DNA of 40,178 bases, taken from IMG/VR virus record IMGVR_UViG_3300021087_001011, positions 1 to 40,178 of that record; one strand, given 5' to 3'. The translations under genes were made by a program, and so were the position numbers. The stretch is from a virus. The stretch's first letter is position 1. Each line of letters starts with the position of its first letter. The notes under the pieces are model-generated. The model had not been told where the DNA came from. It ran no database searches and worked only from the letters and a program-made list of their open reading frames with translations. Shown in pieces: positions 9,082 to 38,316 of the stretch.

Positions 9082-9348
9082 ATGCAGAAGGCAACTAAAA
9101 AATACGCCAGGCGGCGTAAAATCATAAAAGATTCCACAAACTCCGATTTTCCCGACGTTCACCTAGTAGAATTAAACCAACAAGCCCTTAAAAACGGTAA
9201 AATTTATAAGATAAAAGTAGACCATCCTCATTGGGATGATGACTATTGTCAGGCTTGGGTTAGACGAATGCATGAAGTAGATAGGTGGAAACCTTTACAT
9301 TATAGCTATCATAAAGGTTGGAAAACATTTACATTTTATAAAATTTAA
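9082..9348 (+). CDS. hypothetical protein, 88 aa
   Basis: The basic N-terminus (MQKATKKYARRRKI) is followed by a compact domain rich in aromatics, His and Asp (HPHWDDDYCQAWVRRMHEVDRW). No family recognised. Late-type promoter upstream. The stop directly abuts the stop of a convergent gene at 9349. Confidence 0.55.
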   Translation: MQKATKKYARRRKIIKDSTNSDFPDVHLVELNQQALKNGKIYKIKVDHPHWDDDYCQAWVRRMHEVDRWKPLHYSYHKGWKTFTFYKI

Positions 9349-9528
9349 TTATTTTCCTTGAATAAATTTTCTAATAATATCCATTCCTACCACCATAATT
9401 AAAATCATTACATATTCAAATTTAAGATCAAATCCTGTCTTAACAAAATATTCTCTGCCCACAATAGCGGCAAACATAATTGTAAAAATGTATGATAGAA
9501 ATGCGTATATTATTATTCTAAATATCAT
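9349..9528 (-). CDS. two-helix membrane protein, 59 aa
   Basis: Starts MIFRIIIYAFLSYIFTIMF, with helices at about 3-24 and 39-50 joined by a polar loop (GREYFVKTGFDLKFEY). The near-consensus promoter with the leaderless spacing just upstream makes this a convincing gene despite its size. Holins and small membrane effectors share this layout, but nothing identifies it further. Confidence 0.6.
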   Translation of the reverse strand: MIFRIIIYAFLSYIFTIMFAAIVGREYFVKTGFDLKFEYVMILIMVVGMDIIRKFIQGK

Positions 9529-10574: not shown

Positions 10575-11843
10575 TTAAAATTGCTCTTCTTCAGTTGATC
10601 CTTCTAAAGCACTTAACGTACTACTGCCTGTAACTAGTTTTGATACTTCATCAAAGTATCCTGCACCAACTTCTCTTTGATGTTTAACTGCTGTAAATCC
10701 TTGTGCCTGCGCCGCAAACTCTTTTTGTTGTAGTTCAACGAAAGCAGTCATGCCTGTTTCTTTATATTTACTAGCTAAATCAAACATACTATGATTCAAT
10801 GCGTGAAATCCTGCAAGTGTAATAAATTGAAATTTACAACCAATCTCTCCTAATTCGTCTTTAAAGTTTCTTATTTGTTTGTCATTTAGTTTAGCTTTCC
10901 AATTAAATGACGGGGAACAATTGTATGCAAACATCTTATTTGGAAATTTTTTACGTACTTCTATACAAAATTCTTTAGCTTCTCCGATGTCTGGGTTACT
11001 AGTTTCCATCCATACTAAATCACTATATGGAGCATATGCAAGTCCACGAGCAACTGCTTGATCCATTCCAGCTTTTACTCTAAAGAATCCTTCAGCAGTT
11101 CGTTCACCTGTTATAAATTTTTGATCTACTTCGTCGTGATCACTTCTAATTAAAGCACCAGCAAGTGAATCTGTTCTTGCAATTATTACTAATGGAACTT
11201 TCATAATGTCCGCGGCAAGTCTAGCCGCTACAAGTTTTTCAATCATTTCGCTAGTAGGTACTAAAACTTTTCCACCCATGTGTCCACATTTTTTTGCTGA
11301 AGACAATTGATCTTCTAAGTGTACTCCTGATGCACCTTCTCTAATCATATGTTTGAATACTTCGTGTGTATTCAATACACCACCAAATCCTGATTCAGCA
11401 TCTGCTACGATAGGTAAAAAATAATCTATGTTCTCTTTACCTTCCATATGTTGAATTTGATCTGCACGAATAAATGTATTATTAATTTTTTTAAGTATGC
11501 GAGGAACACTTTCAGTATTATATAATGACTGGTCTGGATACATTTCGTCTGTTGTATTTGCATCTGCCGCCACTTGCCACCCTGACAAATATACAGCATC
11601 TAATCCTGCTTTGGCTTGTTGTAGTGCTTGGTTACCTGTAAGAGCACCCAAGGAACTTACGTAAGGTAATTCTTTTAGTTTATACCAAAGGTTTCTTGAT
11701 CCTCTTTCAGCAAGAGTATATTGAATGTTAGCAGTACCACGTAATTTTTCTACGCTTTTCTGAGAGTAAGGTCTGATAATGCCGTCCCATCTATTAGAAT
11801 TCCAATCCATTAAAGGGAGAACATTTTTCATTATTGAATCCAT
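10575..11843 (-). CDS. aceA: isocitrate lyase, 422 aa
   Basis: Splits isocitrate into succinate and glyoxylate, the first step of the glyoxylate shunt. The full-length family pattern is present. The Mg site lies around D148 (VADAESGFGG). The catalytic loop is KKCGHMGGKVLVPT (184-197), with nucleophile C186. Also present are TGERTAEGFFR, the AYNCSPSFNW substrate loop, KFQFITLAG, and the family C-terminal end GSTEEEQF. Length matches bacterial enzymes (about 430 aa). No key residue is missing, so it should be active. The start codon shares TAATG with the stop of glutamine synthetase. No malate synthase is in the window. Very unusual for a phage. Confidence 0.93.
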   Translation of the reverse strand: MDSIMKNVLPLMDWNSNRWDGIIRPYSQKSVEKLRGTANIQYTLAERGSRNLWYKLKELPYVSSLGALTGNQALQQAKAGLDAVYLSGWQVAADANTTDEMYPDQSLYNTESVPRILKKINNTFIRADQIQHMEGKENIDYFLPIVADAESGFGGVLNTHEVFKHMIREGASGVHLEDQLSSAKKCGHMGGKVLVPTSEMIEKLVAARLAADIMKVPLVIIARTDSLAGALIRSDHDEVDQKFITGERTAEGFFRVKAGMDQAVARGLAYAPYSDLVWMETSNPDIGEAKEFCIEVRKKFPNKMFAYNCSPSFNWKAKLNDKQIRNFKDELGEIGCKFQFITLAGFHALNHSMFDLASKYKETGMTAFVELQQKEFAAQAQGFTAVKHQREVGAGYFDEVSKLVTGSSTLSALEGSTEEEQF

Positions 11844-12847
11844 TATTGATGTTCTATTGTTGTTATAATACGGTTAACGACTTTGTAAGGATCAGCATTG
11901 CCGGCTGGTCTTCGATCTTCTAAATAACCTTTGTAATTATTATTAATTGTTATCATAGGAACTCTAATACTTGCACCTCTATCATACTCTCCATAACTAA
12001 ATTTGTCAATATGTTGAGTTTCGTGTAATCCTGTTAAGCGTTCATCATTTTTGCTACCATATACTGCAATATGTGATTTGTGTAAAGGTTTCATTTTTTC
12101 ACAAATGTTAGTAATAACTCCTTTACCACCTTGATCTCTTAATGCAGAATTTGAAAAATTAGTATGCATACCATTACCGTTCCAATCTCCTTTAATAGGT
12201 TTAGGTTCGATGTTAATATCTATTCCATATTTTTCTGCTGTTCTATAAAGTATATAACGTGCCATCCAGGCATTATCAGCCGCATTTTTTCCACCTTTAC
12301 CAAACACTTGATATTCCCATTGTCCTAACATTACTTCTGCGTTTGTTCCGTGTATAGATACACCTGCTGTTATACAATTATCAACGTGCTCAAACATTAT
12401 TCTTCTTCCTGTTTTACCTATGTTAGATGCACCTACTCCACAATAATAATCTCCTTGTTCTTTAGGTTCACCTTCAATAGGCCACTCTAAAGGAAATTCA
12501 CCCATCATAAATGTATATTCTTGTTCAAAGCCAAACCAATAATCTTTTTCAGTAGATGAAACAATTTGACTTCTAGAATTAGATTCGTGTGTTGTGTTAT
12601 CTTTGTTTAGTACTTCACATAATACTAACCAGTCCGATTCAAAAGGACCTTTAAATAATTTTACAGGTTGCAATATGCAATCTGATTCGGAACCTTTTGC
12701 TTGTTGTGTGCTAGATCCATCGAAGCCCCATAGAGGAACTTCCTCAATGGATGTTACCATTCTATCTATTACTTTTACTTTTGATCGTAAGGTAGGTTCA
12801 GGCTTGTAACCGTCTAGCCAAACGTATTCTAGTTTTGTTTTTTGCAT
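11843..12847 (-). CDS. glnA: glutamine synthetase, eukaryotic type (GSII), 334 aa
   Basis: Makes glutamine from glutamate, ammonium and ATP. It is the short GSII form found in eukaryotes and some bacteria (glnII), not the ~470-aa GSI. Motifs in order: WGFDGSST (40-47), FGFEQEYTFM (105-114; E108 and E110 bind metal), YYCGVGA, GTNAEVMLGQWEYQ (167-180; E171), WNGNGMHTNFS (222-232; H228), ERLTGLHET (269-277), RGASIRVP and GYLEDRRPAGNADPY. All usual active-site residues appear intact. GSI-type adenylylation is not expected. It is coupled to isocitrate lyase by TAATG and shares the early-type promoter at 13240-13268. Confidence 0.95.
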   Translation of the reverse strand: MQKTKLEYVWLDGYKPEPTLRSKVKVIDRMVTSIEEVPLWGFDGSSTQQAKGSESDCILQPVKLFKGPFESDWLVLCEVLNKDNTTHESNSRSQIVSSTEKDYWFGFEQEYTFMMGEFPLEWPIEGEPKEQGDYYCGVGASNIGKTGRRIMFEHVDNCITAGVSIHGTNAEVMLGQWEYQVFGKGGKNAADNAWMARYILYRTAEKYGIDINIEPKPIKGDWNGNGMHTNFSNSALRDQGGKGVITNICEKMKPLHKSHIAVYGSKNDERLTGLHETQHIDKFSYGEYDRGASIRVPMITINNNYKGYLEDRRPAGNADPYKVVNRIITTIEHQ

Positions 12848-14170: not shown

Positions 14171-14311
14171 TTATTTCTTTTTCAACCAAGTCAATATTTT
14201 TTTACGACTTTCTTTTCGCCAAGGTTTAAGATCGAGTATAATATAAAAAAAGATTCCGCCAGCTAAAATAAATGCAATAAATCCAAATAAAACTTTAAAA
14301 AATGTTACCAT
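14171..14311 (-). CDS. single-pass membrane protein, 46 aa
   Basis: Starts MVTFFKVLFGFIAFILAGGI, with one helix and a Lys/Trp-rich cytoplasmic-type tail (KPWRKESRKKILTWLKKK). It overlaps the HtrA stop by 7 bases. Direct coupling to the protease gene suggests a related envelope role, but no function is known. Confidence 0.5.
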   Translation of the reverse strand: MVTFFKVLFGFIAFILAGGIFFYIILDLKPWRKESRKKILTWLKKK

Positions 14312-15504
14312 GTAGTTTTTTCCTCTTGTGGTACTAGTATTTCTTCTTGCTCTTCTAATTCTTCTTCTAATTCTTCTTCTTCATCATATAGTTCTTCAAC
14401 ATCTATCATTTCTGTAACTTCTACTTCTACTCGTCCTAATATTACAGAAAGGCTTATGTATTCATAATTTCTATAAACTACAAAGTCTACAGAGTCTCCA
14501 GGCATTTTTGACCATAACACTTCTATTACATCAGGTACTACTTTAATAGGAGCATTGTCCATAGAAACTATTATATCACCAGCCATTAATCCAAATCTCA
14601 TTGCCGCCGAATCTGGCATAACTTCTTTAATTTCTAAAAAATGTTCTATGCCTCTACCAGTTAATTGTACAAATAATTCTTTGTCATCTATTATTCCCAT
14701 TTGTATTCCTATGCTAGGTTTAGTATGATGACCTACTTGAATAATTTGTTCTGCAACTCTTTTTGCTAATTTCCAAGGAATAGAATAACCATAACCTACA
14801 TAATAAGCTGTTGGGGAAATTAAAAGAGTATTAACACCTATAACTTCTCCTTGTTCATTAAGTAAGACTCCCCCAGAGTTTCCTGGATTTATTACAGCAT
14901 CAGTTTGATAGTAATGAACAAAACTGTCCAATGGATTTGGTCTATAGTCATAACTTAATATGCCTTTTGTAAATGACCAAATTAAATTTAAACCGTGCCC
15001 TAATGCATAAACATCATCTCCTATCATAGGATTTTTTGTTGCCCAATCAAGATGACTATGTTTTACTTTTTCTTTAACTTCTAATACAGCAATATCAACT
15101 GTTTCGTCGTATCCTATAAGCACAACTTCTTTTACTGCAAATGGAAAACTCCATGTGTATATTGTAAAAGTGTCCATGTTTTTAACAACGTGATAGTTTG
15201 TTACTATATGAATATCGTTAATAAAGAAACCTGTTCCTAAAGAACTTTTAGGTGGAACAATAATTTCTGGTTTTTCTCCACGTTCGTCAAAAAAATCTTT
15301 ATAAGGGTCTTTATCGAATGGTCCTTTAGGTGAGTCGTCCGGACCCAGAAATGTCATTGATTCGCCACTTTTTTGACCAGTAACAACTACTATACTATCA
15401 AAAGTAGATTCCCATTTCCAGTCTTGTTTTTTATAATCAAACGTACCTGCAGTTGCAGTAGTTACAAATATAAAACTGATTATGAATACTATTCTTGCTA
15501 ACAT
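14305..15504 (-). CDS. HtrA/Deg-like exported serine protease with PDZ domain, 399 aa
   Basis: Signal peptide (residues 1-19, ending ATA), then a trypsin-like domain of the HtrA/Deg family with all three catalytic residues: H105 (VTNYHVV), D137 (DETVDIAVLEV) and S210 (NPGNSGG). One PDZ-like domain follows at about 260-360 (AMRFGLMAGDIIVSMDNAPI). The C-terminus is a strongly acidic tail (EELYDEEEELEEELEEQ). It should work in the periplasm, cutting or chaperoning misfolded envelope proteins. A late-type promoter (15592-15598) precedes a 26-aa peptide gene coupled to it. Rare in phages; may act on receptor turnover, lysis timing or envelope stress. Confidence 0.9.
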   Translation of the reverse strand: MLARIVFIISFIFVTTATAGTFDYKKQDWKWESTFDSIVVVTGQKSGESMTFLGPDDSPKGPFDKDPYKDFFDERGEKPEIIVPPKSSLGTGFFINDIHIVTNYHVVKNMDTFTIYTWSFPFAVKEVVLIGYDETVDIAVLEVKEKVKHSHLDWATKNPMIGDDVYALGHGLNLIWSFTKGILSYDYRPNPLDSFVHYYQTDAVINPGNSGGVLLNEQGEVIGVNTLLISPTAYYVGYGYSIPWKLAKRVAEQIIQVGHHTKPSIGIQMGIIDDKELFVQLTGRGIEHFLEIKEVMPDSAAMRFGLMAGDIIVSMDNAPIKVVPDVIEVLWSKMPGDSVDFVVYRNYEYISLSVILGRVEVEVTEMIDVEELYDEEEELEEELEEQEEILVPQEEKTTW

Positions 15505-16447: not shown

Positions 16448-16455
16448 CATAAATA
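16448..16455 (+). promoter_or_regulatory. late-type promoter box (CATAAATA)
   Basis: TTTCATAAATATTTTT, 11 bases before the ATG at 16467. It is the only promoter-like signal ahead of the seven-gene cassette 16467-21381. Confidence 0.45.
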
Positions 16456-16466
16456 TTTTTACCCCT

Positions 16467-16982
16467 ATGAAGAAATATATTGGAAAGTTTTTCCAAGTCG
16501 ATTGGAATCAGATAATCAAAAACCTTGACGGTGTAAAACGTCAATACGAGACAACTCCTTCAAATTATCAAGATAAAAAAGAAATTGAAGCGGCATTTAA
16601 GAATGTTGCCAATATAATAAATTTTGAAACCTTTCATGATGGTTTTGGTAATGTTAATAAAGAATTTGGTAATTGGTTAAATGTATTACCTGTTATGTGT
16701 TGGATTAGCGAAATGAAAACAGGATATTGTGTTCCACCTCATATTGATGATAAAGAAATAAATGAAGTAATAGGTGAAGTACCAAAAGATAATTTTGTTA
16801 GATATCATTGTCATATTTCAAATCCTTGTATGGGTAGTACATTAATTGTTGAACAAGATTGTTATCATATGGAAGAACAAGGTGCTGTATATCAATGGGA
16901 TAAAATAGATGCAGAACATTGTGGATTTAATATTGGAAAACAAATAAAATACATATATCATTTTATAGGACAAGCAGAATAA
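16467..16982 (+). CDS. Asp/Asn beta-hydroxylase-like 2OG oxygenase, 171 aa
   Basis: Pattern of the aspartyl/asparaginyl hydroxylase branch of 2OG-Fe(II) oxygenases: PPHIDD (metal ligands H92 and D94), RYHCHISNP (R112, 2OG-binding type), STLIVEQDCYHMEEQGAVYQWD (second strand pair), AEHCGFN (distal H151), and a final hydrophobic strand. A short version of the fold, so probably the core only. Substrate unknown. First gene of a tightly coupled cassette; the next gene starts at TAATG. Confidence 0.6.
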   Translation: MKKYIGKFFQVDWNQIIKNLDGVKRQYETTPSNYQDKKEIEAAFKNVANIINFETFHDGFGNVNKEFGNWLNVLPVMCWISEMKTGYCVPPHIDDKEINEVIGEVPKDNFVRYHCHISNPCMGSTLIVEQDCYHMEEQGAVYQWDKIDAEHCGFNIGKQIKYIYHFIGQAE

Positions 16983-17551
16983 TGATATTACAATTTGATT
17001 ATTATCCTGTATTAAGATCGGATGATGAAGTTAATTCTTCAATTGCTAGTAATGACTTACGAGATGTTATGGACACATATTGGAACGATGAAGAGTGTTG
17101 GTCAACATTAGAATTATCTAAAGAACAAATGGAAAAAGGATCCATAACTAGAACAGCAAATATTAATATAAAAGAACATAACATATTAAAAATAGCAGGA
17201 AAACAAATTTGGAAAGATAAGTTTATAAAACAAACTGCAACCATTGAACTTTCTAAAGTATCAGATGATGAATGGAAAATAATTTTTACTAATTTAATAG
17301 ATGCACCTACAAATGAATTTAATTATTTTAACAATAAGTTTGGAATAGGTTGTGAAAAGTTTCATTTTAAATTAAATGGTGAAGCACTTATTGTTAATCA
17401 AGAAATAAAAGCAGAAGAACTTTATAAAGTTACAAATACTTTTAAATGGAAAGGTAATACTCCTTTACTATTTGAAATGGAAGAATATGGCTATGCTGAA
17501 GAAAATGTATTTGCTAGATTTATACAATGTGTTAGATGGACAATAAAATGA
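16982..17551 (+). CDS. cassette protein of unknown function, 189 aa
   Basis: Starts MILQFDYYPVLRSDDEVN. Soluble and beta-rich, with no membrane segment or Cys cluster. No family recognised. Very AT-rich like its neighbours and coupled to both (TAATG upstream, ATGA downstream). Its place between two oxygenases suggests a substrate-carrier or partner role; this is inference. Confidence 0.55.
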   Translation: MILQFDYYPVLRSDDEVNSSIASNDLRDVMDTYWNDEECWSTLELSKEQMEKGSITRTANINIKEHNILKIAGKQIWKDKFIKQTATIELSKVSDDEWKIIFTNLIDAPTNEFNYFNNKFGIGCEKFHFKLNGEALIVNQEIKAEELYKVTNTFKWKGNTPLLFEMEEYGYAEENVFARFIQCVRWTIK

Positions 17552-18162
17552 ACAAGTATCATAGATATTTAAATATTAAACAAGTAAACAAACCTAAAAT
17601 GTTTGAAAAAGATTTAGAAAATGATTTTATAACGTATATGGGTAATGATGTTGCACAACAAGATTTTGTAGATTGGTTAAGCAAATATAATTTAAAAGTT
17701 AGTAATGTAGTAGAAGGATTTTTTACAAAAACAAACGGCAGTATTCCAGTTCATAATGATATGACAATTAAACCAGACGTAAATGATGCTTGTAAAATTA
17801 ATTTTACTTGGGGACCTAGTAATAGTGTTACCCGTTGGTGGAAAGTCAAAGACGAAAGTAAGTTGAAAGAAATTGTACATGATACGACAGAAGTTAATAA
17901 AGGATTAGAAGAAGCTGGTGTCGTGCCTGATATAGACTGTTATAAATGTTATAGTGCTAATAACGAAGATTTAGAGCTAGTACATGAAGCAGTTATAGAT
18001 AAACCTAGCTTAATGAACGTAGGTCAGTTGCACGATACATATAATCCTAATGCTGGTCAAAGTAGATGGACCTTATCATTTACAATATTAAATAAGGATA
18101 CAGGAGAACATTTAAGTTTTAATAAAGCACTAGAACTTTTTAAGGAGGTAGTTTATGAATAA
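17548..18162 (+). CDS. 2OG oxygenase-like protein, 204 aa
   Basis: The start at ATG 17548 is set by the ATGA overlap with the preceding stop. It reads as a double-stranded beta-helix oxygenase: IPVHND (H69 and D71 as metal ligands), INFTWGPSNSVTRWWKV, then LMNVGQLHDTYNPN (distal H162) and SRWTLSFTI (R173, likely 2OG contact). The order and spacing fit a full catalytic site, but the family is divergent. Substrate unknown. Coupled to the next gene by an 8-base overlap. Confidence 0.55.
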   Translation: MNKYHRYLNIKQVNKPKMFEKDLENDFITYMGNDVAQQDFVDWLSKYNLKVSNVVEGFFTKTNGSIPVHNDMTIKPDVNDACKINFTWGPSNSVTRWWKVKDESKLKEIVHDTTEVNKGLEEAGVVPDIDCYKCYSANNEDLELVHEAVIDKPSLMNVGQLHDTYNPNAGQSRWTLSFTILNKDTGEHLSFNKALELFKEVVYE

Positions 18163-18691
18163 AACTTTAATACTTACGTGCCCTAAAGAAGATGGAAAAA
18201 GATATTTTTCCAAAGCTCAACACGGGTATGAAAACAATTTGAATATTTCATTTAATAACAATGTTGTATTCAAAAATATAAATGATGCAGAAGAAATGTT
18301 GCCAATAACAGACAGCAAACAAGTGGAAATGTCAAACGAAATGCCAAGTAAATTGGTATTAGATTATGATATAAAATGGACTAGTAGTTCTGAAAAAGTT
18401 ATTATTGGATTTGTAATAGATCCAGCTACTAATGTTATTAGTACAACATTTGATAGAAAAAACTTTGTAGGAGGTAGTGAAGATCTAGTAGAAGATTATT
18501 ATGTTAAATTGCAAATTAATGATCAAGAATCTATGTTAGATAAAGAATTTCACAAAGGAGATTTTAAAAAAGTATTATTATCTCACCCTGCAATTGTTCA
18601 ACAACCAATTATAATAAAATTGGAATCTAAACACGCATTTAAAAACGATAATAATATAACATATGATCAAATAGAGTTAAGAATAGAATAG
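18155..18691 (+). CDS. cassette protein of unknown function, 178 aa
   Basis: Starts MNKTLILTCPKEDGKRYF. Predicted beta-rich soluble protein with many acidic residues. No signal peptide, no membrane helix, no recognised motif. A good ribosome-binding site (AAGGAGG) lies within the end of the previous gene. Its stop is one base before the GTG of the aminotransferase. Confidence 0.5.
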   Translation: MNKTLILTCPKEDGKRYFSKAQHGYENNLNISFNNNVVFKNINDAEEMLPITDSKQVEMSNEMPSKLVLDYDIKWTSSSEKVIIGFVIDPATNVISTTFDRKNFVGGSEDLVEDYYVKLQINDQESMLDKEFHKGDFKKVLLSHPAIVQQPIIIKLESKHAFKNDNNITYDQIELRIE

Positions 18692-18692
18692 A

Positions 18693-19787
18693 GTGAAACA
18701 TTTAAAAGGATTAATACCGGGTACCCAACAACTGACTAATGTAGCCAAACCGCATTGGCAGTATGGCTATATTAAAGATAATAAAAAGATTATTGATCCT
18801 TTACTACACTATGGTTGTTTTTTATTAGGGTTTAATAGACCAGACATATTAGATTACGTACACAATAATATGAAAGCTAAACCTGAAATAGCAGAAAGTA
18901 TTGTAAGAAACGAAAATTTATATTTGAATGATTCCAGTTATATGTTAGCGGATCAACTGTTTCAAATGTGTGGATATAAAAGTATATTTGCATTAAGTGG
19001 CAGTGACGCTAACGAAGGAGCAATTAAATTAGCTTCAGCATATCAAAAAATTGTAGGACAAAACAAACGCACAAAGATTGTGTGCTTTGAAAACAGTTAC
19101 CACGGTAGTACATTTTTAAATTACAACCTGGGAGACGGTTTGTTTGGTGATCCTTTTTATACGCTTAAACCGTATGACCAAGTCATCAGATTAAAAAAGG
19201 ACTTCGATATCTCCAGCATCGATTGGAGCGAAGTGATGTGTATCATTGTAGAAACTTGTTCTTATAGTCAGACGTTGCAACCCAACTCTGAACAATTTTG
19301 GAGCAAGTTAACTCAACTTCAAAAACAAGGAGTTGTGTTAATACTTGATGACATCTTTATAGGGGGAGGCAAGACAGGCAGTTTTGTCGGATGGTATAAA
19401 TTGCCTGTCAAGCCCGATATATTCACGATGGGCAAAGCCATATCAGCAGGCTTTTTTCCGTTGAGTGCTACTTTGTATGGCCCACGAATAGATGAAGTGT
19501 TGCCTGATAATTTTGATTGGGAACATGGATTTACATACAATTTTAGCCAAGCAGGCATCCTCAGTACCCTAAAATATATAGACTTGTTGCACGAAGAAAT
19601 GCCATTTGAATTACATTACACATTGAAAGAACGGGCAACATTTATTTTTAAAGAAGCTGGATATGACATTGTAGGACACTTTGGATTAATCTTTGATGTT
19701 AAACGAGGAGATAATAGACAGTTTTTTATTATCCCTATTAGTGCTACAGATGAATACTTTGATGTTTTAAAGGAACAAATAAAATGA
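18693..19787 (+). CDS. class-III PLP aminotransferase, 364 aa
   Basis: Fold-type I, class-III (ornithine/GSA type) aminotransferase using pyridoxal phosphate. Visible elements: LSGSDANEGAIKLA (101-114, phosphate-binding turn), YHGST (136-140), LILDDIFIGGGKTG (216-229, D219 binding the pyridine nitrogen), and FTMGKAISAGFFPLSA (244-259) with Schiff-base K248. Starts with GTG. Shorter than typical members (about 400-450 aa), with the C-terminal domain trimmed. Class-III enzymes act on distal amino groups or semialdehydes. Visibly less AT-rich than the four genes before it, suggesting a separate origin. Coupled to the next gene by ATGA. Confidence 0.85.
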   Translation: MKHLKGLIPGTQQLTNVAKPHWQYGYIKDNKKIIDPLLHYGCFLLGFNRPDILDYVHNNMKAKPEIAESIVRNENLYLNDSSYMLADQLFQMCGYKSIFALSGSDANEGAIKLASAYQKIVGQNKRTKIVCFENSYHGSTFLNYNLGDGLFGDPFYTLKPYDQVIRLKKDFDISSIDWSEVMCIIVETCSYSQTLQPNSEQFWSKLTQLQKQGVVLILDDIFIGGGKTGSFVGWYKLPVKPDIFTMGKAISAGFFPLSATLYGPRIDEVLPDNFDWEHGFTYNFSQAGILSTLKYIDLLHEEMPFELHYTLKERATFIFKEAGYDIVGHFGLIFDVKRGDNRQFFIIPISATDEYFDVLKEQIK

Positions 19788-20320
19788 AAATAGTAGATAA
19801 CTTTCTTAGCGAAGAAGTTTATAAAAACTTTGTAGATGCATTACAAAATGAAAAGTCTCCTATGGAAATTCCTCATGACGAAAGCGATCATAAAGGATTA
19901 GACAATGTTAAGTTATATCGTGTAGAAGGCATAGCAAAAACTATGTTTATGAATGAACTAGAAGAACAAGAGTACTGTAAAATAGATTGGGACAAAGCAG
20001 ACTTTGACGTAAGATATCATGTAACAAGAGCGCCTTATTATTCAAATTTTCATTGTGATCGTTTATCAGATTGGAAAACAGATGCCGTAGACTATTGTGG
20101 CATAACGTTTTTTATGAACGCAGAATGGGATCCAAATGATGGCGGATTCTTTATGTGGAAAAATCGTTGGACTAGTACTACAGGAGAGTTTGTAGAACCT
20201 ATAGCAAATAGATTAGTATTAAATCCACAAGACTTTCCTCACGCAATAACACAAATTACAAGTAAAGATGTAGTGCGACACAGCATACAAATTTTTATAA
20301 ACAAAGGATATGTTATATGA
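19784..20320 (+). CDS. 2OG-Fe(II) oxygenase, prolyl-hydroxylase-like, 178 aa
   Basis: Compact 2OG-Fe(II) oxygenase: FHCDRLSDW (H90, D92), CGITFFMN, DPNDGGFFMWKN (GG-F strand typical of P4H-like enzymes), VLNPQDFPHAITQI (distal H153), and RHSIQIFINKG (R165). The complete metal and cosubstrate site is visible. It may hydroxylate a small molecule made by the flanking aminotransferase and amidinotransferase, or a protein. Coupled to both by ATGA overlaps. Confidence 0.75.
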   Translation: MKIVDNFLSEEVYKNFVDALQNEKSPMEIPHDESDHKGLDNVKLYRVEGIAKTMFMNELEEQEYCKIDWDKADFDVRYHVTRAPYYSNFHCDRLSDWKTDAVDYCGITFFMNAEWDPNDGGFFMWKNRWTSTTGEFVEPIANRLVLNPQDFPHAITQITSKDVVRHSIQIFINKGYVI

Positions 20321-21381
20321 TCTACACAGAATATGATCCATTAGAATCTGTAATCGTAGGAGACACGTATGCTCCTGGCGACGTGGATCATTTGTTGACT
20401 AAAGGCAACATTAATCAATTTAATCATATCCTAGAAGAAACTAAACAGGATTTAGATGCGTTAGCAGACTTCCTAACAAAAGGAGGTATTGAAGTAACTC
20501 GTCCTACAGTATACAACTATGATGCCATAAAAATGCCACAGTTTAAAGTCGATGTACCAATTGCACCAATCGTACCAAGAGATCAGTATATGGTTATGGG
20601 TAATACTATTGTCCAAGCCTATACAAGTTATACAGACAGATACTTTGATGCTATTAGCTATTATAAAATATTTGAAAAATTATTCCGTGAAGGACACCGT
20701 TGGGTAAGTCAACCTGCCCCTATGCTTATAGATTTAAACACTACAGACGAATGGTTTATGAATGATAAAACGTATGTAGAAAAATTATCTGATAGAGTGT
20801 TGTGGCATATGGCTACAATGTTTAAGGCGGGCGATGCATTTATTATTAATACACGAGGTCCTGGAAGTCAAACTGGATTAGAGTGGTGTAAACGTGAACT
20901 GCCTGAATATAGATTTATTACTAACGAAGGCACACGGGTTAAAGAATTTGGACATATTGACCATGGCTTTATTATGGTAGATGATGAAACAGTTATTCAT
21001 GCTGGTATGGATTGGTTGCCTAAGTGTTTGCATAACAAAAAGTTATTAGATGTAAGTGATTGTTTGCCCCCATTAAATATGAATAGATATATTCAAGACT
21101 ATGCTAAAGCACGAGATAAAATGGATGTTGCTTGGTTAGACAAGTATTTAGAGAATTGGAGAGGGTATAATCAAGAAGTTTGCTTTGATCTCAACGTATT
21201 AATATTAGATAGAAACAATATTGTGTTTGCAAGACACATACCTAAACTATTTGAAAAACTAAAATCCTTACACATTGATTGCCACGTAGTGGAGCAACGC
21301 CATTATTTGTATTGGGATGGTGGAATACATTGTAGTACATTAGACGTTAAACGTAGAGGCGTCAAAAGAAAAATCATATAA
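20317..21381 (+). CDS. glycine/inosamine amidinotransferase family protein, 354 aa
   Basis: Belongs to the guanidine-modifying superfamily (AGAT-type amidinotransferases). These move the amidino group from arginine to an amine by a covalent Cys intermediate. The catalytic set is visible: D173 (AGDAFIINTRG), H213 (EFGHIDHGF, as in the HID motif of human AGAT) and C339 (GGIHCSTLDVKR). Length is close to the family (about 350-420 aa). The acceptor cannot be told; glycine, an aminosugar or the product of the preceding aminotransferase are options. Last gene of the + strand cassette. Confidence 0.85.
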   Translation: MIYTEYDPLESVIVGDTYAPGDVDHLLTKGNINQFNHILEETKQDLDALADFLTKGGIEVTRPTVYNYDAIKMPQFKVDVPIAPIVPRDQYMVMGNTIVQAYTSYTDRYFDAISYYKIFEKLFREGHRWVSQPAPMLIDLNTTDEWFMNDKTYVEKLSDRVLWHMATMFKAGDAFIINTRGPGSQTGLEWCKRELPEYRFITNEGTRVKEFGHIDHGFIMVDDETVIHAGMDWLPKCLHNKKLLDVSDCLPPLNMNRYIQDYAKARDKMDVAWLDKYLENWRGYNQEVCFDLNVLILDRNNIVFARHIPKLFEKLKSLHIDCHVVEQRHYLYWDGGIHCSTLDVKRRGVKRKII

Positions 21382-21398
21382 AATCTGTTTACCGAATG

Positions 21399-21887
21399 CT
21401 ACCGCGTCGCTTCGCGACTGCTTACTTTCTGGCGGATGACCGCTTCGCGGCTTATTCGCCACCTTGATCCCTCTCGAACAATATAACCTACGCAATTAGA
21501 TGATCCACACTTACAAGGGTATTGTTTGTAGTCTGTTTTATCAAAACTAAACCCATAATCATAAGTTAACTCTTCATCTTTTTTAATATTCTTTATAGCA
21601 AAAATCCATAATTGTCTGTTATAATCAAAAACTTCACAGTTAGGATTGCAGGAATGATTTATTAATCGAGCAGTATTAAATTTAAAATCACCATCAAGAT
21701 CGTACTGTTCGTTTAAATTAAACAAGTAAATCTCTTTATCGTTATCATACTTTGGATCTGTTTCTGCTTTAGTGTGACTAATTTTCTTTCCTTTATACTG
21801 GATAATTCTTTGACCTTTTTTAATATTAGTAGAGGCAGACAAGCCATGTCTATGTATGTTGGATCTTTTGTTTTTATATAATTTCAT
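21399..21887 (-). CDS. SET-domain lysine methyltransferase-like protein, 162 aa
   Basis: Complete small SET domain: the N-terminal HGLSASTNIKKGQRI strand, RLINHSCNPNC (74-84, SAM-binding pseudoknot), EELTYDYGF (106-113, catalytic-type Tyr) and a post-SET Cys set CKCGSSNCVGY (125-135). SET proteins transfer methyl from S-adenosylmethionine to protein lysines. It could methylate a phage or host protein such as a ribosomal or DNA-binding protein. The last about 20 residues are encoded by a GC-rich, hairpin-bearing stretch unlike the rest of the gene. It sits 2 bases after gp41 in the same operon. Confidence 0.85.
   Translation of the reverse strand: MKLYKNKRSNIHRHGLSASTNIKKGQRIIQYKGKKISHTKAETDPKYDNDKEIYLFNLNEQYDLDGDFKFNTARLINHSCNPNCEVFDYNRQLWIFAIKNIKKDEELTYDYGFSFDKTDYKQYPCKCGSSNCVGYIVREGSRWRISREAVIRQKVSSREATR
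21406..21460. repeat. pair of GC-rich palindromes between convergent genes
   Basis: GTCGC-TTC-GCGAC (21406-21418) and CCGC-TTC-GCGG (21440-21450). The second is nested in GGCG/CGCC (21431-21434 with 21457-21460). These are REP-like small hairpins inside the 3' end of the SET gene, 25 bases past the stop of the convergent amidinotransferase gene. They may act as a two-way transcription stop or be a mobile palindrome. Confidence 0.5.
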
Positions 21888-21889
21888 TA

Positions 21890-23317
21890 TTACTCTTTGT
21901 CTAGATTAGATAAAAACTCTCGCAATTTAGTAGAATCGCCTTCTGTTTTAGCTTGTGGTATTCTAGTACCTTTGCTAGGGTCAACGGCTGTTGTTTGTGG
22001 TTGTTCAGGTGATGTTTTCTTTAATGTATTGTATACTTGACTTACTCGTTTATCATATTTTTGTGCGTCTTCATCTTCAAGTAAATCTCTAATTCTTAAT
22101 GAATCTATGTCAAATTCTAAATCAATTTTACTACCTATACCACTTGATGATCTAGTTTTCATTAATTGTATTTGATATCTTCCACGTTCTCTCATTGCTC
22201 TACTAGTGAATATACCAAATACATTATCAGCAGTTTGTATTTTACTAATACCGCCTGCTATATGTGAGTGATCAAATTCTATTTCTTCAACTGAACCTCT
22301 GTTCAATTGTGATGCAGTTACAAATATAATTCCTAATTCCATTGATAAATTTCTTAATTCTTCTGATACAAACTTATCTTTAACAAATAAATCACTTGGA
22401 GATACTTTTTTAGATATTGGCATCATCAAATCAAGATAATCAACTAACAATACATCAACTTTACTTTGTGTTTTAATTTCATATTCTTTAATAAATGATC
22501 TTAAATCATTTGCATTTTTGCCACTTGGCATATACTTAATTTGGAATTTACCAGATTTCTTACCAAGTATTCTTACTTTCATTTCAACACCATCTAATTC
22601 TTTAAAAATTTTCTTTGTAGGAATGTCAGTAAGCATACTATCTATTCTCATTGATATTAATTCTTCACTTAATTCAAAGCTAACATATAAAATATTCAAT
22701 CCTGCTAACGTCCAGTTACAACCTAAATTTGTAAGGAATAAAGATTTACCTGCACCAGATCCTCCTGCAAATATATTAAGTTCACCTTTATTAAATCCAC
22801 CAAATAGTTTTCTATCTAATGTTGACCAGCCTGTGCTAACTTGACCTGCTTGATCTTTTAATTTCATTAATCTTTCTTTTGGATCTTTAAAATAGTCTGT
22901 ACCTAAATCTTTGTGTAGTCCTATTTGTACTGCATTTTTAACCAAGTCTTCAACTGGACCATAGTCACCTTTTTCTAACATATCTGCAGATTTTAATATA
23001 GCTCTTTCAAGACTTTTATGTCTAACAAATGTTTCAAAGTCACCTAGTAACCAATCATAATGGGATTCGTGAAGACCTTCAGGTACTTTTAAATCTGTTT
23101 TACAATTTGCATTAATCATATCTGTTGTTGGTAATGCATTATGTTCAGCAACATATTTGTCAAGATAATCTGCCGCACCTTGTAATTTTCTATCAAATAA
23201 ATTGTAATTAAATATAGATTGACATCTAATAAATGCTTCTGCATTTCCTAGCATCATTTCTAGATAAACTTTTTGAATATCGTATCCGTATTCTTTATTT
23301 TGTCTTGATTTTTCCAT
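21890..23317 (-). CDS. replicative DNA helicase, DnaB-like (T4 gp41), 475 aa
   Basis: Hexameric 5'-3' helicase of the phage replisome, RecA-type fold. Walker A is FAGGSGAGKSLFLTN (183-197) and Walker B is in VDVLLVDYLDLM. Also present: SQLNRGSVEEIEF and the DnaB-type end MKTRSSSGIGSKIDLEFD. Length matches T4 gp41 (475 aa). The start at ATG 23317 is chosen because a sigma70 promoter lies just upstream. The region between 23317 and 23353 is rejected as coding. Partner of the primase encoded at 24429-25412. Confidence 0.9.
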   Translation of the reverse strand: MEKSRQNKEYGYDIQKVYLEMMLGNAEAFIRCQSIFNYNLFDRKLQGAADYLDKYVAEHNALPTTDMINANCKTDLKVPEGLHESHYDWLLGDFETFVRHKSLERAILKSADMLEKGDYGPVEDLVKNAVQIGLHKDLGTDYFKDPKERLMKLKDQAGQVSTGWSTLDRKLFGGFNKGELNIFAGGSGAGKSLFLTNLGCNWTLAGLNILYVSFELSEELISMRIDSMLTDIPTKKIFKELDGVEMKVRILGKKSGKFQIKYMPSGKNANDLRSFIKEYEIKTQSKVDVLLVDYLDLMMPISKKVSPSDLFVKDKFVSEELRNLSMELGIIFVTASQLNRGSVEEIEFDHSHIAGGISKIQTADNVFGIFTSRAMRERGRYQIQLMKTRSSSGIGSKIDLEFDIDSLRIRDLLEDEDAQKYDKRVSQVYNTLKKTSPEQPQTTAVDPSKGTRIPQAKTEGDSTKLREFLSNLDKE

Positions 23318-24317
23318 TTTCCTTATTGTACCATACATCGGGATCAAAGTCAAGGTGTTTTGGATACTTTGTTAAAACAGAACCAATACAAGAACCTGGA
23401 TCGCCTGGATTTGGTGGAATCCATATGTCATCCCATATATGTTGTAATTTACTAATAGCAGTTTTGTTTAATGCACAACCACCTACAAAAACTACATTAT
23501 CAGCTTTAATATTTGTTTGGCACCAACCACTAATACTAACTAAAGTCAATTCAAAAATATGTTGAGTAGTTGCGGCTATGTTGGCTAAATCTTCTTCTGA
23601 ATTTAATTCAGGTCTCCACCAATTAGCTCCTCGATGTAAGTTTTCTCTTAATTTAAAAGGCATTCTAGTATGAACTAATTCTTCCATAAACTTTCTGTAA
23701 TGAACTCTCCAGTTGCCTTTTTTAGCAAGTTCTTCTGTTTTATATTCTTCTGCGTTTGGTTTAAATCCTAATCGTTGTGTCATTGCACTATAAAATAATC
23801 CAACACTATGCGGATATCTTTGTGAGTATACTTGTTTTAAATGATTTCTTTTACCGTGCCATATAGTAAATGTTTGAAATTCTCCTATGCTATCTAATAC
23901 AACTATTGCGGCATTTCTTTCAAAGAAAGGTGCTGTAAAATATCCATATGCCGCATGGCTATGATGATGTTTTGCATATTCGATTGGAACTTTATGTATA
24001 CCTGCTTTAGCTAGATATTTTTTAATATTATTTTCTTGAAACAGAGATCCTTGTCCTGCGTATAATTGTCGTAAACTTTTTAGAAAAGGTTTTTCATACC
24101 AAATAATTTTTGCCGGGAATGCCCATCTAGGATTTGATCTAACATAGGCTAACATTTTCTCATTTAAACTTGGATCACCTGGGATATTGCTAAAATCTCT
24201 AGATAGTCCGGCCCAAAGAAGTTTTAGCTTATAATGATCTGTTAAACCGTTAGGTCCCCACTTCATCACGGCTAAACTTGCATCGTGACTATTACCTGTT
24301 ATTCCCCATATTATCAT
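23295..24317 (-). CDS. carbamoyltransferase (NodU/CmcH N-terminal domain only), 340 aa
   Basis: Shows the Kae1-like N-terminal half of O-carbamoyltransferases: ITGNSHDASLAV (6-17), AKHHHSHAAYGYF (115-127, HHxxHA metal-binding type), AAIVVLDSIGEFQTFTIW and VVFVGGCALNKTAI. The C-terminal YrdC-like domain of full-length enzymes (about 550-600 aa) is absent, as in other T4-like marine phages. It may carbamoylate a sugar, nucleotide or base. Located inside the replication operon between primase and helicase, which hints at DNA precursor or DNA modification; inference only. Confidence 0.8.
   Translation of the reverse strand: MIIWGITGNSHDASLAVMKWGPNGLTDHYKLKLLWAGLSRDFSNIPGDPSLNEKMLAYVRSNPRWAFPAKIIWYEKPFLKSLRQLYAGQGSLFQENNIKKYLAKAGIHKVPIEYAKHHHSHAAYGYFTAPFFERNAAIVVLDSIGEFQTFTIWHGKRNHLKQVYSQRYPHSVGLFYSAMTQRLGFKPNAEEYKTEELAKKGNWRVHYRKFMEELVHTRMPFKLRENLHRGANWWRPELNSEEDLANIAATTQHIFELTLVSISGWCQTNIKADNVVFVGGCALNKTAISKLQHIWDDIWIPPNPGDPGSCIGSVLTKYPKHLDFDPDVWYNKENGKIKTK
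23325..23353 (-). promoter_or_regulatory. sigma70 promoter for the helicase gene
   Basis: TTGACT (23348-23353), 17-base spacer, TACAAT (23325-23330), then 7 bases to the ATG at 23317. It lies within the 3' end of the carbamoyltransferase coding sequence. Confidence 0.65.
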
Positions 24318-25447: not shown

Positions 25448-26233
25448 TTAATTTCGAACTAATATTTTGTCTATTGTGCCCGCAGTTATTTGATGTCTAA
25501 ATCTTAAATGACTAAAAACGCCATTAAAATTTACATATTTGAGAGTGTCTGTAGCAAGTAAATTGGTTACTTCTATATCTGTCCAATTTGTACCAGTAGT
25601 TACTTGATTGTCTAAAGTACCTTGAACTGTTAATGTACCTTCAGCATCTGTAGAATAGTATGCTACTGTATGAAGAGCTGAATTTCCGTTTATTGCCGGA
25701 TCGGCTGTAAGGGCAGATGAATTATATATTAAATTGTTATCTCCGTCCTGAATAAATGTTTTAACTTCGTGTGATACTTTAGGTCCTGGAAATTCACTAG
25801 TACTTAGAAATACTGTTCCTTGACTTCCGAAGTGTGAATTAGGATAAGTTAAAACGTTTTTAGTAGTACTTGTATTATACAAATAAACACTATAACTCAT
25901 ATATTGTTGCTTAAGATTTAGTAAATCGTTTTCAGATAATGTTACAGTAAATTGCCCTACTTTGCTTGGTGTAGATGTTTCTATAATAGTTCCATCCTTT
26001 TCTACAACTAAAGTATCGTCTTCATTCCACATTTTAAACTTAGGTGTGTATGTATTAAGGATACTAACAGCTTTTTCATCAGCATTTTTAACTTCAAATT
26101 GAAGAACATTGTCTATATTTCTGTAAACGTTTATATTTCTTTGATACACGGATCTATACCTCGTAATGTGCCCTGCCAAATTCGCAGTAAGCACTATTCT
26201 ATTATTTAATAAATATCTTCGTATAAGTTGCAT
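25448..26233 (-). CDS. probable virion protein, 261 aa
   Basis: Beta-rich protein without signal or membrane helices. N-terminal half: strands with FEVKNADEKAVSILN and VEKDGTIIETST, like the Ig-like baseplate/fibre domains of tailed phages. C-terminal half: YYSTDAEGTLTVQGTLDNQ, TLKYVNFNGVFSHLRFRHQI and a terminal DKILVRN, like repeated beta domains of structural proteins. No exact homologue named. Late-type promoter (26253-26260) supports a virion role. It is a late gene sitting inside the early replication block. Confidence 0.55.
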   Translation of the reverse strand: MQLIRRYLLNNRIVLTANLAGHITRYRSVYQRNINVYRNIDNVLQFEVKNADEKAVSILNTYTPKFKMWNEDDTLVVEKDGTIIETSTPSKVGQFTVTLSENDLLNLKQQYMSYSVYLYNTSTTKNVLTYPNSHFGSQGTVFLSTSEFPGPKVSHEVKTFIQDGDNNLIYNSSALTADPAINGNSALHTVAYYSTDAEGTLTVQGTLDNQVTTGTNWTDIEVTNLLATDTLKYVNFNGVFSHLRFRHQITAGTIDKILVRN

Positions 26234-33075: not shown

Positions 33076-33104
33076 ATTATACTTTGGTATTATCAAAAAG
33101 TCAA
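33076..33104 (-). promoter_or_regulatory. sigma70 promoter, leaderless, for the UvsW operon
   Basis: TTGACT (33099-33104), 17-base spacer, TATAAT (33076-33081), then 6 bases (AAAGGT) to the ATG at 33069. It overlaps the 3' end of the upstream glycan gene. Confidence 0.75.
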
Positions 33105-33941
33105 TCTAGAAAATGGTAATCCTTCTGCTATTTCTTCTGTAGTCCACTCCGTATATGCATAATCTTGGAGCCATTGTTGCCTGTCGGGCATTTTTGGGTC
33201 TTCTATGTGGGAGAAATCAGTATTTCCTACGTCATATGCAAGACTGTCTTTACCTACAAATGCTGGTATTCCTTTAAGAACTGCTGTAATACCTGGGTTA
33301 CTACTTTCACTAACTACCGCCCAGCAATTTGTTAAATCAAAGTCAAAGTCATCATAACTGTTTTCTACTTGTTTAGGAATTTGCATTCCTACTTGACTTT
33401 CGTGTGTTAGATTTAATCGAACAGGACATCTAGGATGAGTTCTTATTATTATTTTTCTTTTTGAATATTTTCTAATTTTATCAATAGTTTCATGCAAATA
33501 TTCATTTAATGGTGGCATATCTTTCCATTGTTCACTTTTATCATGTTGAGAACATATTAATATATGTTCACCATCAGTCCTCCAAGGACTACATTTTAAA
33601 TTAAATTTATTTGCTCTGTCAGGACCATTATATTCTGCACCCATTGGACCAAAGTCAGCTCTTCGATTTATTCCATCAACACCAACTTTCCAAGTAATAT
33701 TTCTTTTAATACTTCCTACTTCTATTACTAATACTTTTTTATTTTGTTGATGGTATTCCCACCATATTCTTTTATTAGGCAACATCCTTCCGTGCCACAG
33801 TAATGACCATATAACAGCCACATCTGCATCTAAAGAGTTTTCAACTATTTCATGTCCTAATTTTAATAAACCTTGTTTAACTGCATTAAAAACTGGAACA
33901 CTATTTAAAGAACCAAAATTTGTAAACACACTAAACTTCAT
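33093..33941 (-). CDS. capsule-type glycosyltransferase-like protein, 282 aa
   Basis: The start at ATG 33941 is set by the ATGA overlap with the previous stop. GT-B-like protein of the kind seen in capsule polysaccharide genes: PWRTDGEHILICSQHDKSEQ, KRKIIIRTHPRC and VVSESSNPGITAVLKGIPAF. The same three blocks in the same order occur in the genes at 34774 and 35724, so these three are paralogues. Donor and acceptor unknown; probably acts on a surface or virion glycan. Confidence 0.6.
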   Translation of the reverse strand: MKFSVFTNFGSLNSVPVFNAVKQGLLKLGHEIVENSLDADVAVIWSLLWHGRMLPNKRIWWEYHQQNKKVLVIEVGSIKRNITWKVGVDGINRRADFGPMGAEYNGPDRANKFNLKCSPWRTDGEHILICSQHDKSEQWKDMPPLNEYLHETIDKIRKYSKRKIIIRTHPRCPVRLNLTHESQVGMQIPKQVENSYDDFDFDLTNCWAVVSESSNPGITAVLKGIPAFVGKDSLAYDVGNTDFSHIEDPKMPDRQQWLQDYAYTEWTTEEIAEGLPFSRLTF

Positions 33942-34777
33942 ATATTTTTCCAATACTCTTCGTTACGACCTATCATTAAATCTGTTTTTAAGCTAGTTCC
34001 TTTTTGTTTTCGAGAATCTCCTTTTAAATGATCAAGCCAGGTACCTAGTACGCAATTGATGAAAGGATGCCCGCCTCCGCCCGTCTTTGCAGTCTTATTG
34101 TATATGTTTTCGCTATAATCTAGTACATCTGCATCTTGTAGTCTTGCACTTTTTAATAGCTGTCCAAATACATATGAGTCATGCCATTCGGATAATAAAA
34201 ATATACCATTTTCGGCATCTTCATATACACGTTCAAAATCTTTTAAAAATTTTTTGCAGGAAGGATGTTTTAAATTCATTCCATAAAATCCGCACTCGGG
34301 CCATGTTTGTGAACCTCTTCCTCTACCAACAAATGTTAACCATCTTGTATCAGGAAATAATTTTGTAAAGTCATGGACGGGCCAAGGACTATGTACAACA
34401 ACATCAGCATCTATCCATATTAACCAATCTACACTTTCGTCTTCTGCACCATATAATACAGAATAAACTTTATTTGCAAATCTTATTGCGTCCCATTTAA
34501 ATTTTTTATGATGGTCACGTGGACGCTTTTCAGGAAATGGACATATACCATTTGCTTTAGGAACGTCTTTCCATTTATTTTTAAAAGCTGTTAGTTTAGT
34601 AATAACTTCACTATTATGAATTGTAGTTCTTTCATCTCCTTGTGGATTACAATTTTCTGCAAATATATCTAGTCGTATACTTTTATCTACATTTTTATTA
34701 AAAGAATCTATAAATCTTTGTCCATACAAATCCATTCCTTTTTTATTAAAGGTAGTTACTACTTTGTAATTTTTCAT
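33938..34777 (-). CDS. GT-A glycosyltransferase, 279 aa
   Basis: The DxD-type metal/nucleotide-sugar motif is in VDWLIWIDADVVVHSPW (117-132, D123 and D125), followed by a long acceptor region with WPECGFYGMNLKHP and SEWHDSYVFG. Full-length GT-A fold. Adds a sugar from a nucleotide donor; specificity unknown. Coupled to its neighbours by ATGA overlaps. Confidence 0.7.
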   Translation of the reverse strand: MKNYKVVTTFNKKGMDLYGQRFIDSFNKNVDKSIRLDIFAENCNPQGDERTTIHNSEVITKLTAFKNKWKDVPKANGICPFPEKRPRDHHKKFKWDAIRFANKVYSVLYGAEDESVDWLIWIDADVVVHSPWPVHDFTKLFPDTRWLTFVGRGRGSQTWPECGFYGMNLKHPSCKKFLKDFERVYEDAENGIFLLSEWHDSYVFGQLLKSARLQDADVLDYSENIYNKTAKTGGGGHPFINCVLGTWLDHLKGDSRKQKGTSLKTDLMIGRNEEYWKNI

Positions 34778-35724
34778 TTAACCCACTTCCTTAAATGTTT
34801 CCAAGCAGTACCATCTTTTAATTCAGCCAATGTCCAATGTACTTGTGCCATTTGTCGAACCCATAATTCTCTATCAAACTCTCTAGGTTTTTCTATTTCT
34901 GCAAATGAATGATGTGTTACAGGAGCCGATTGAGCTCGTACAGGATCAGTTATATAGGTAGGTATTCCTTCAATTACACTAGACACTGTTGGACTTGAGT
35001 TATGTCCTACAACTGCAAATGCTCCAGCATATTCATCTCTAATATCTTTTGACCAACTAACTTCTACTCCTTGAAATTGTACGTTTCGTGCTTTTATCCA
35101 TTCTCTAATCATTGCTTGATGTCTTGCAGTATTTTTGTCACCAGGATGAAATCTAATTTTAACACGTCTATCAGAATACATTCTAATTTTAGTCATGACG
35201 TCTTTTAACCAATTCATAACAGGCATACCTTCCATACTCCACCCACCATCTCTTTGGCAACAAATTAATATAAAGCCATCTCTACTTGTAGTTCTCCAAG
35301 GCTTAAGGTCTACATTAAGACTCTTTTTAATAATTTCCCATCTATTAGGATCAGGATCTTTGTTACAATATTCTGCTGTATTAGGAAATATTCCATCAAA
35401 GCCATATCTTAAATATGTTTTTTCTTGTTTAGGATCAGCCCATAAAAATAAACTACTATCAACGATTAAACATCTATTTCCTTTTTTAATTTGATTTTCA
35501 TAAACGTTTTTTCTTAAAAGTAAATGACGTGTTTGTTTTGAATCCTTATGTACAAAACCTTGAATAACAGATACATCTGCGTCTATGATTGACCAACCAT
35601 TAGAAACTAAACCCTGATCTCCACTTGCATTAACACCTTCTATAAAATTTTTTATAATTAAAGGCTTTTGTGGACTTTTGTTTCCTGGCGGAATAACTTT
35701 CATATATGCAACTACTCTTTTCAT
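34774..35724 (-). CDS. capsule-type glycosyltransferase-like protein, 316 aa
   Basis: Paralogue of 33093 and 35724. Matching blocks: PWRTTSRDGFILICCQRDGG, RRVKIRFHPGDKN, AVVGHNSSPTVSSVIEGIP, and the shared end motif HHSFAEIEKPREFDRELW. Family function inferred as sugar transfer or a related lectin-like activity. Stop and start overlap on both sides. Confidence 0.6.
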   Translation of the reverse strand: MKRVVAYMKVIPPGNKSPQKPLIIKNFIEGVNASGDQGLVSNGWSIIDADVSVIQGFVHKDSKQTRHLLLRKNVYENQIKKGNRCLIVDSSLFLWADPKQEKTYLRYGFDGIFPNTAEYCNKDPDPNRWEIIKKSLNVDLKPWRTTSRDGFILICCQRDGGWSMEGMPVMNWLKDVMTKIRMYSDRRVKIRFHPGDKNTARHQAMIREWIKARNVQFQGVEVSWSKDIRDEYAGAFAVVGHNSSPTVSSVIEGIPTYITDPVRAQSAPVTHHSFAEIEKPREFDRELWVRQMAQVHWTLAELKDGTAWKHLRKWVK

Positions 35725-36548: not shown

Positions 36549-36555
36549 ATTATTC

Positions 36556-38289: not shown

Positions 38290-38300
38290 TGTACTACCAA

Positions 38301-38308
38301 TATTTATT
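38301..38308 (-). promoter_or_regulatory. possible late promoter (AATAAATA)
   Basis: GCAATAAATATTGG on the minus strand, in the 27-base gap before the epimerase ATG at 38289. Could allow late expression of the glycan genes downstream. Confidence 0.35.
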
Positions 38309-38316
38309 GCCCAGTT

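Follow-up and report, generated by a model that had tools for sequence, protein, structure and literature searches.

Viral amidinotransferase genes are listed in the literature as creatine-pathway or general auxiliary metabolic genes (AMGs), and the many 2-oxoglutarate (2OG) oxygenases of cyanophages have been given other proposed roles. Tailoring chemistry is known from Campylobacter phage CP220, in which an AGAT homologue lies within a row of tailoring enzymes (a radical-SAM/AGAT/glycosyltransferase cluster), and from marine tailed phages carrying flavin halogenases of the VirX1 type. The sequence analyzed here, the whole 40,178-nt stretch of the IMG/VR virus record IMGVR_UViG_3300021087_001011 (hereafter the window), contains at positions 16467-21381 a cassette of seven genes, designated G1, G2, G3, G4, AT, OG6 and AGAT, which encode three 2OG-oxygenase-like proteins (G1, G3 and OG6), a class-III aminotransferase (AT), an AGAT-like pentein and two beta-sandwich proteins (G2 and G4). 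No description of this seven-gene combination was found in the open-licence literature searched, within which it is a phage tailoring cassette of new chemistry. Comparison with its relatives showed it to be a conserved, co-transmitted and modular unit behind a late-type promoter.

The seven open reading frames (ORFs) fill their interval on the plus strand, overlapping or almost abutting each other (successive spacings from G1 to AGAT of -1, -16, -8, +1, -4 and -4 nt), and are flanked on either side by genes coded on the minus strand. In T4-type phages, a motif of the CATAAATA type drives late transcription. Three such sites in all occur on the plus strand of the 40 kb, one of them immediately ahead of G1 (Table 1), and the presence of a TATAAATA-like promoter ahead of the first gene marks the cassette in the window as a T4-type late unit. 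Among 40 distinct cassettes, 21 carry [T/C/A]ATAAATA close to where their first gene begins, against an expectation of about 0.03 per 240-nt stretch. Given this motif and its role in T4-type phages, the cassette enzymes should be made alongside virion proteins. The first-pass annotation had described seven overlapping genes on one strand behind a single late-type promoter, had read their products as three oxygenase-like proteins, a class-III aminotransferase, an AGAT-type enzyme and two unknown proteins, and had seen in their opposite orientation to the surrounding genes the look of a transferred unit. The ORFs lie at the positions it gave and the promoter is supported, the gene contents were borne out by profiles and active-site residues, and the minus-strand flanks, horizontal exchange and several genomic contexts agree with transfer. 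The window DnaB shares 52% identity with its counterpart in Pseudomonas phage PA5oct (287 kb), and nearer relatives (69% identity) are encoded on 262- and 358-kb contigs; the window therefore probably represents part of the genome of a jumbo-type myovirus.

Relatives of AGAT, down to 52% identity, were found in 62 IMG/VR loci. When these and the results of other searches were combined, AT was located within three genes of AGAT at all 67 loci having enough flank, in at least five genomic contexts, including those next to DnaB, to a PHROG_10325 gene, to radical-SAM genes and to an SDR-like gene with G2-G1 opposite. Three architectures recur: variant A, G3-G4-AT-OG6-AGAT, to which the window adds G1-G2; variant B, OX_a-OG6-OX_b-AT-AGAT, in which OX_a and OX_b are Asp_Arg_Hydrox proteins (PF05118) and OG6 is of the PF13640 type; and variant C, G3-AT-AGAT, near which radical-SAM and flavin halogenase tailoring genes are found, such as a tryptophan-halogenase gene (L048:7743-9167, PF04820, E 2e-95). 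AT also occurs without a nearby AGAT in approximately 28 viral loci, most of them in P-HM1-like cyanophages, where it follows a DUF6445/2OG gene between the late sigma factor gene gp55 and gp47 (e.g., L112:7339-9074 and its relatives L084-L123), and the existence of these AT-oxygenase loci means that this enzyme family can dispense with amidination as its last step. Nine further loci carry G3 and AT without AGAT, and in one cassette lacking AGAT a radical SAM protein with an HMPTM zinc ribbon is encoded between G3 and AT (L125:6258-7352). A further 41 DnaB loci, each flanked by at least 2.5 kb, showed neither AT nor AGAT, in a sample that may be unrepresentative; cassette-free DnaB relatives are thus common, which makes the cassette accessory. 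Among cultured phages, the records searched contained no orthologue of G3 or OX_b and only distant ATs (~20-30% identical).

Pairwise comparisons of loci located the borders of exchange with precision. Loci L019 (variant B) and L021 (variant A) share 91-92% identity immediately outside the cassette; this homology ends at the late promoter TATAAATATTTTT and returns at the AGAT start codon, whereas inside these borders AT is 70% identical and the oxygenases do not align. Identity shifts likewise at the AGAT start between L014 and L011. In L005, AT and AGAT are 96% identical to those of the window and OG6 only ~25%. In a relic ORF of the same locus (9208-9471), the 30 N-terminal residues of an OG6 of the window type are joined to the C-terminus of an AT of the L046/L053 type; an OG6 that is 71-75% identical to that of L046/L053 follows it, and this relic is the scar of a recombinational OG6 swap. 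As judged from these three comparisons, the oxygenases and AT form the variable part of the unit, exchanged as a block, and AGAT forms its constant part. Distances between AT sequences were correlated with those of AGAT, G3 and G4 (Mantel r of 0.85, 0.92 and 0.90, respectively) and less so with those of OG6 (0.75). Median dN/dS values of 0.07-0.16 across all seven families indicate purifying selection, and values between the window and L008 were 0.15-0.41 for six genes.

All three putative 2OG-oxygenases have intact active-site residues (Table 1) and are of types that resemble protein or amino-acid hydroxylases. The 2OG-binding Arg is kept in every G3 and OG6 sequence, and in the G1 alignment a basic residue follows the HxD...H triad. 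OG6 matched PF13640 (E 6.4e-05, under the curated cut-off) as well as the profiles of 4iw3 (E 0.004) and of the prolyl 4-hydroxylase-domain protein 9ei6 (E 0.008), and G1 gave a weak profile match to the beta-hydroxylase 7v4f (E 0.018). G1 and G3 belong to no named family in any library searched, and their assignment as oxygenases is based on the HxD...H motif and, for G3, also on the Arg; a single profile family comprising both was not supported. In AT, the pyridoxal 5'-phosphate (PLP) residues G103, S104, D219 (the pyridine Asp), K248 (the Schiff-base Lys) and T281 are present in 76 of 76 distinct sequences. Every NCBIfam subfamily score shown for AT was far under its cut-off; with 108 bits against a cut-off of 410 for TIGR00707, AT does not group with the acetylornithine aminotransferases (ArgD).

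The AGAT-like protein has no Pfam match; its best phmmer hits in the PDB were HsvA (E 1.9e-21), StrB1 (3.7e-18), SxtG (4.4e-17) and human AGAT (1.6e-16). D89, H213 and D215 are invariant in 58 of 58 viral sequences and C339 in all 57 that cover its position, and the GGxHCxTLDxxR end typical of AGAT-type enzymes is kept. Residue numbers and roles in human AGAT are the established ones, among them Asp254 as the acid paired with the catalytic His. This position is Asp in AGAT, StrB1, HsvA, SxtG and phage CP220 and Glu in eight of eight bacterial relatives, and it is His164 in all 58 viral sequences, in which the position of Ser355 is Glu or Asp. The low dN/dS of the AGAT-like gene (~0.13) shows that His164 is a consistent change rather than decay. 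It weakens the literal label "arginine:amine amidinotransferase", and since the acidic partner is replaced the protein is called AGAT-like here, arginine:amine amidino transfer being its predicted activity. Searches for a bacterial source of AGAT returned only relatives of ~25% identity, mostly from candidate-phylum bacteria.

G2 and G4 have no relatives of known function. Against the PDB, and for G4 also against BFVD, their AlphaFold2 (AF2) models gave nothing at E<=1e-3, only weak matches to C2/Ig-like beta-sandwiches. Homology between the two was rejected, because an hhalign P of 0.013 came with a probability of only 3% and the similar strand order of the models is merely suggestive. Gene neighborhoods were more informative: G2 adjoins G1 in 13 of 18 places and is at most two genes away in three more, G4 lies within two genes of AT in 37 of 37 places and occurs with G3 in 35, and the G3 that precedes G4 sometimes occurs as two copies or as a tandem array of four. 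Similarly, in L253-L255 three consecutive G1-type genes are followed by G2, in surroundings that include kinase-like, radical-SAM and further 2OG genes. From these counts and tandem copies, each beta-sandwich protein pairs with one oxygenase family (G1n-G2 and G3n-G4), and the two probably act either as adaptors that bring the oxygenases to a target or as that target. In the comparison of the window with L008/L005 (59% identity), G2 shows a dN/dS of ~1.0 with synonymous divergence equal to that of neighboring genes, although it is conserved elsewhere; an episode of positive selection is possible there.

The initial reading had also stated what would count for and against it, and the relatives bear on each point. 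Homologues are not always scattered: recurrent architectures, the invariable AT-AGAT pairing and the G3-G4-AT order (35 of 37 places) reveal conserved gene order in other viral genomes, and this pairing, block exchange and the promoter motif together describe one late-type, modular, horizontally exchanged unit in many viruses. Catalytic residues have largely been kept in these relatives, including Cys339, His213, Asp89 and Asp215 and those of the oxygenases and of PLP binding, with the exception of the position of Asp254; the loss of catalytic residues that it had named as refuting is therefore seen in part. Structure prediction of the two unknown proteins, which it had proposed, yielded confident beta-sandwich models and no informative fold match.

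Table 1. Positions of the cassette, its promoter and other features in the window.
Feature	Positions	Strand	Supporting data
T4-type late promoter-like site CATAAATA(TTTTTA)	16448-16455	+	starts 19 nt ahead of the G1 ATG
G1, 2OG-Fe(II) oxygenase-like (Asp/Asn beta-hydroxylase type)	16467-16982	+	H92, D94, H151, N155 in 27/27 distinct sequences
G2, beta-sandwich protein, partner of G1	16982-17551	+	AF2 pLDDT 92.3
G3, 2OG-Fe(II) oxygenase-like	17536-18162	+	H73, D75, H166, R177 in 62/62 distinct sequences
G4, beta-sandwich protein between G3 and AT	18155-18691	+	AF2 pLDDT 94.3
AT, class-III PLP aminotransferase, GTG start	18693-19787	+	PF00202, E 8.5e-34
OG6, 2OG-Fe(II) oxygenase (prolyl-4-hydroxylase-like)	19784-20320	+	H90, D92, H153, R165 in 38/38
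AGAT-like pentein amidinotransferase (predicted)	20317-21381	+	PDB profile matches HsvA 3.8e-48, AGAT 1e-36, SxtG 6.6e-35
SET-domain protein (lysine methyltransferase type)	21399-21887	-	PF00856, E 1.8e-23; adjoins AGAT, cassette membership uncertain
Isocitrate lyase	10575-12847	-	PF00463, E 3e-102; KKCGH motif
HtrA-like trypsin-PDZ protease	14305-15504	-	N-terminal signal-like segment
NodU-type carbamoyltransferase	23295-24317	-	beside DnaB
Virion structural PHROG	25448-26233		
Glycosyltransferase-like, epimerase, cupin-like and methyltransferase-like genes	33093-40108	-	three paralogues at 33093, 34774 and 35724

Outside the cassette, the window carries an isocitrate lyase gene adjoining a glutamine synthetase gene, a pair unusual in phage, as well as an HtrA-like protease gene, a run of glycosyltransferase-like and other genes near its end (Table 1) and a carbamoyltransferase gene that is kept in many relatives.

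The reading that we favor, with a probability of roughly 40%, is that the cassette encodes late tailoring enzymes of large marine tailed phages: they would oxidize a phage product, aminate it and amidinate it, and this product would be a virion protein or glycan. The oxygenases would hydroxylate or oxidize a substrate, AT would turn the resulting carbonyl into an amine, and the AGAT-like enzyme would use arginine or a different donor to amidinate that amine, thereby forming a hydroxylated guanidino group; it is the pairing of AT and AGAT that suggests their sequential action. The most likely target is a protein side chain or glycan of the phage's own virion, rather than host metabolism or DNA, given the late-looking expression, the swapping of oxygenase sets around a retained AGAT, the resemblance of the oxygenases to hydroxylases of proteins or amino acids, and the recurrence nearby of virion genes and of the SET methyltransferase. 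In particular, a baseplate/tail-fibre connector PHROG lies upstream of the variant B cassette in L038, the window contains a virion structural PHROG (Table 1), and in L046 a SET homologue is encoded on the cassette strand directly upstream of G3. The radical-SAM and flavin halogenase genes near variant C cassettes, coding for further tailoring enzymes, also favor this reading. Several observations weigh against this assignment. Among the window genes none was identified as a tail gene, and the virion is named as the target by context only; the folds of G2 and G4 lack an informative structural match, in the PDB and for G4 also among viral models; and AT has YHGST in place of the FHGRT of acetylornithine aminotransferase, a change of Arg to Ser. 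To these are added the loci in which AT stands beside another oxygenase without a nearby AGAT, the variant C cassettes, in which only one recognized oxygenase directly adjoins AT, and His164 of the AGAT-like protein. A further-reaching form, in which interchangeable oxygenase and AT modules, inserted after an invariant late promoter and before an invariant AGAT-like gene, give marine jumbo-type phages combinatorial virion decorations bearing hydroxylated amine or guanidino groups, and in which G2 and G4 serve as dedicated substrates or adaptors, is rather unlikely; if true, such combinatorial surface chemistry would be comparable to antigenic variation achieved by chemistry.

It is doubtful that the cassette instead makes a free guanidino metabolite, such as glycine-derived guanidinoacetate or a guanidino amino acid carrying a hydroxyl group, in an auxiliary metabolic pathway acting on the host. 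An AGAT-like fold combined with a class-III aminotransferase would suit this role, viral GAMT genes have been interpreted as a creatine-pathway AMG (PMC11360552), and the isocitrate lyase and glutamine synthetase of the window could provide glyoxylate and amino nitrogen. However, across 20 cassette-type records, many of them fragments, isocitrate lyase was detected in the phage of the window and in none of the 19 others, so that a creatine/guanidinoacetate route (isocitrate lyase to glyoxylate, AT to glycine, AGAT to guanidinoacetate) is not general; a late promoter would be unusual for host takeover, and an oxygenase complement that varies in number and type while the rest is constant would be odd for one fixed metabolite.

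We also consider it unlikely that the pentein is not an amidinotransferase at all but a hydrolase, or an enzyme with another donor or acceptor, the cassette then performing oxidation and amination with a different last step. The retention of the Cys, the His, both Asp residues and the GGxHCxTLDxxR end argues against this, as does the fact that the closest relatives by sequence are all amidinotransferases, whereas His164 where other members have Asp or Glu, the acidic residue at the Ser355 position and the AT-oxygenase pairs without AGAT speak for it. Less probable still is a hot spot that collects unrelated late genes with no common pathway: the site beside DnaB is variable, the cassette-free DnaB loci fit such a site, and oxygenases are gained and lost, but the constant AT-AGAT pairing in several contexts, the G3-G4-AT order, block exchange with exact borders and overlapping ORFs all point to a unit. 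Finally, modification of phage DNA bases, in which a methyl group would be oxidized to formyl, aminated and amidinated, is very improbable: the order of chemistry would suit a 5-methylpyrimidine and AGAT is often located beside helicase, primase and carbamoyltransferase genes, but no PF00303 member (thymidylate synthase/dCMP-hydroxymethylase family) was found in 22 records and no Tet/JBP domain in 23 (mostly fragments in both cases, with a silent search control in the latter), the oxygenases look like protein or amino-acid hydroxylases, and DNA-modifying genes are usually early. An anti-phage defence system was rejected, as PADLOC models assigned none of the seven proteins to a family.

Marine tailed phages encode many 2OG-oxygenases of unexplained purpose, and the cassette links them to an aminotransferase, an AGAT-like enzyme and new beta-sandwich partners in a conserved, swappable, late-type unit that makes their role testable. 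If the product is located on virions, phage surface chemistry would gain a new layer, and activity in a pentein whose acidic position holds His would widen the catalytic range known for the fold.

Compared with known enzymes, the AGAT-like protein finds its best PDB matches, over most of its length, in HsvA, AGAT, StrB1 and SxtG, and keeps the equivalents of Cys407, His303, Asp170 and Asp305; it differs from them in the His at the Asp254 equivalent and the acidic Ser355 equivalent, and its activity is predicted from these alignments. AT shares PF00202 and all PLP-binding residues with class-III aminotransferases (acetylornithine ArgD, BioA and omega-transaminases) but is distant from them, with Ser for the carboxylate-binding Arg of FHGRT and a short C-terminal domain. 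Small 2OG-Fe(II) oxygenases of like kind occur in cyanophages, and P-HM1 has the DUF6445-type gene PHM1_130 (T4-GC 323); in uncultivated relatives of P-HM1 AT is inserted between a PHM1_130-type gene and gp47, whereas P-HM1 itself has the oxygenase gene without AT. The AGAT homologue of phage CP220 differs in having no annotated aminotransferase beside it, in its low identity (26%) and in its Asp at the 254 position. The halogenases of the VirX1 type likewise represent tailoring chemistry in marine tailed phages, and a Trp-halogenase gene lies near one variant C cassette, but they are single enzymes with another chemistry, unlike the multi-gene cassette described here.

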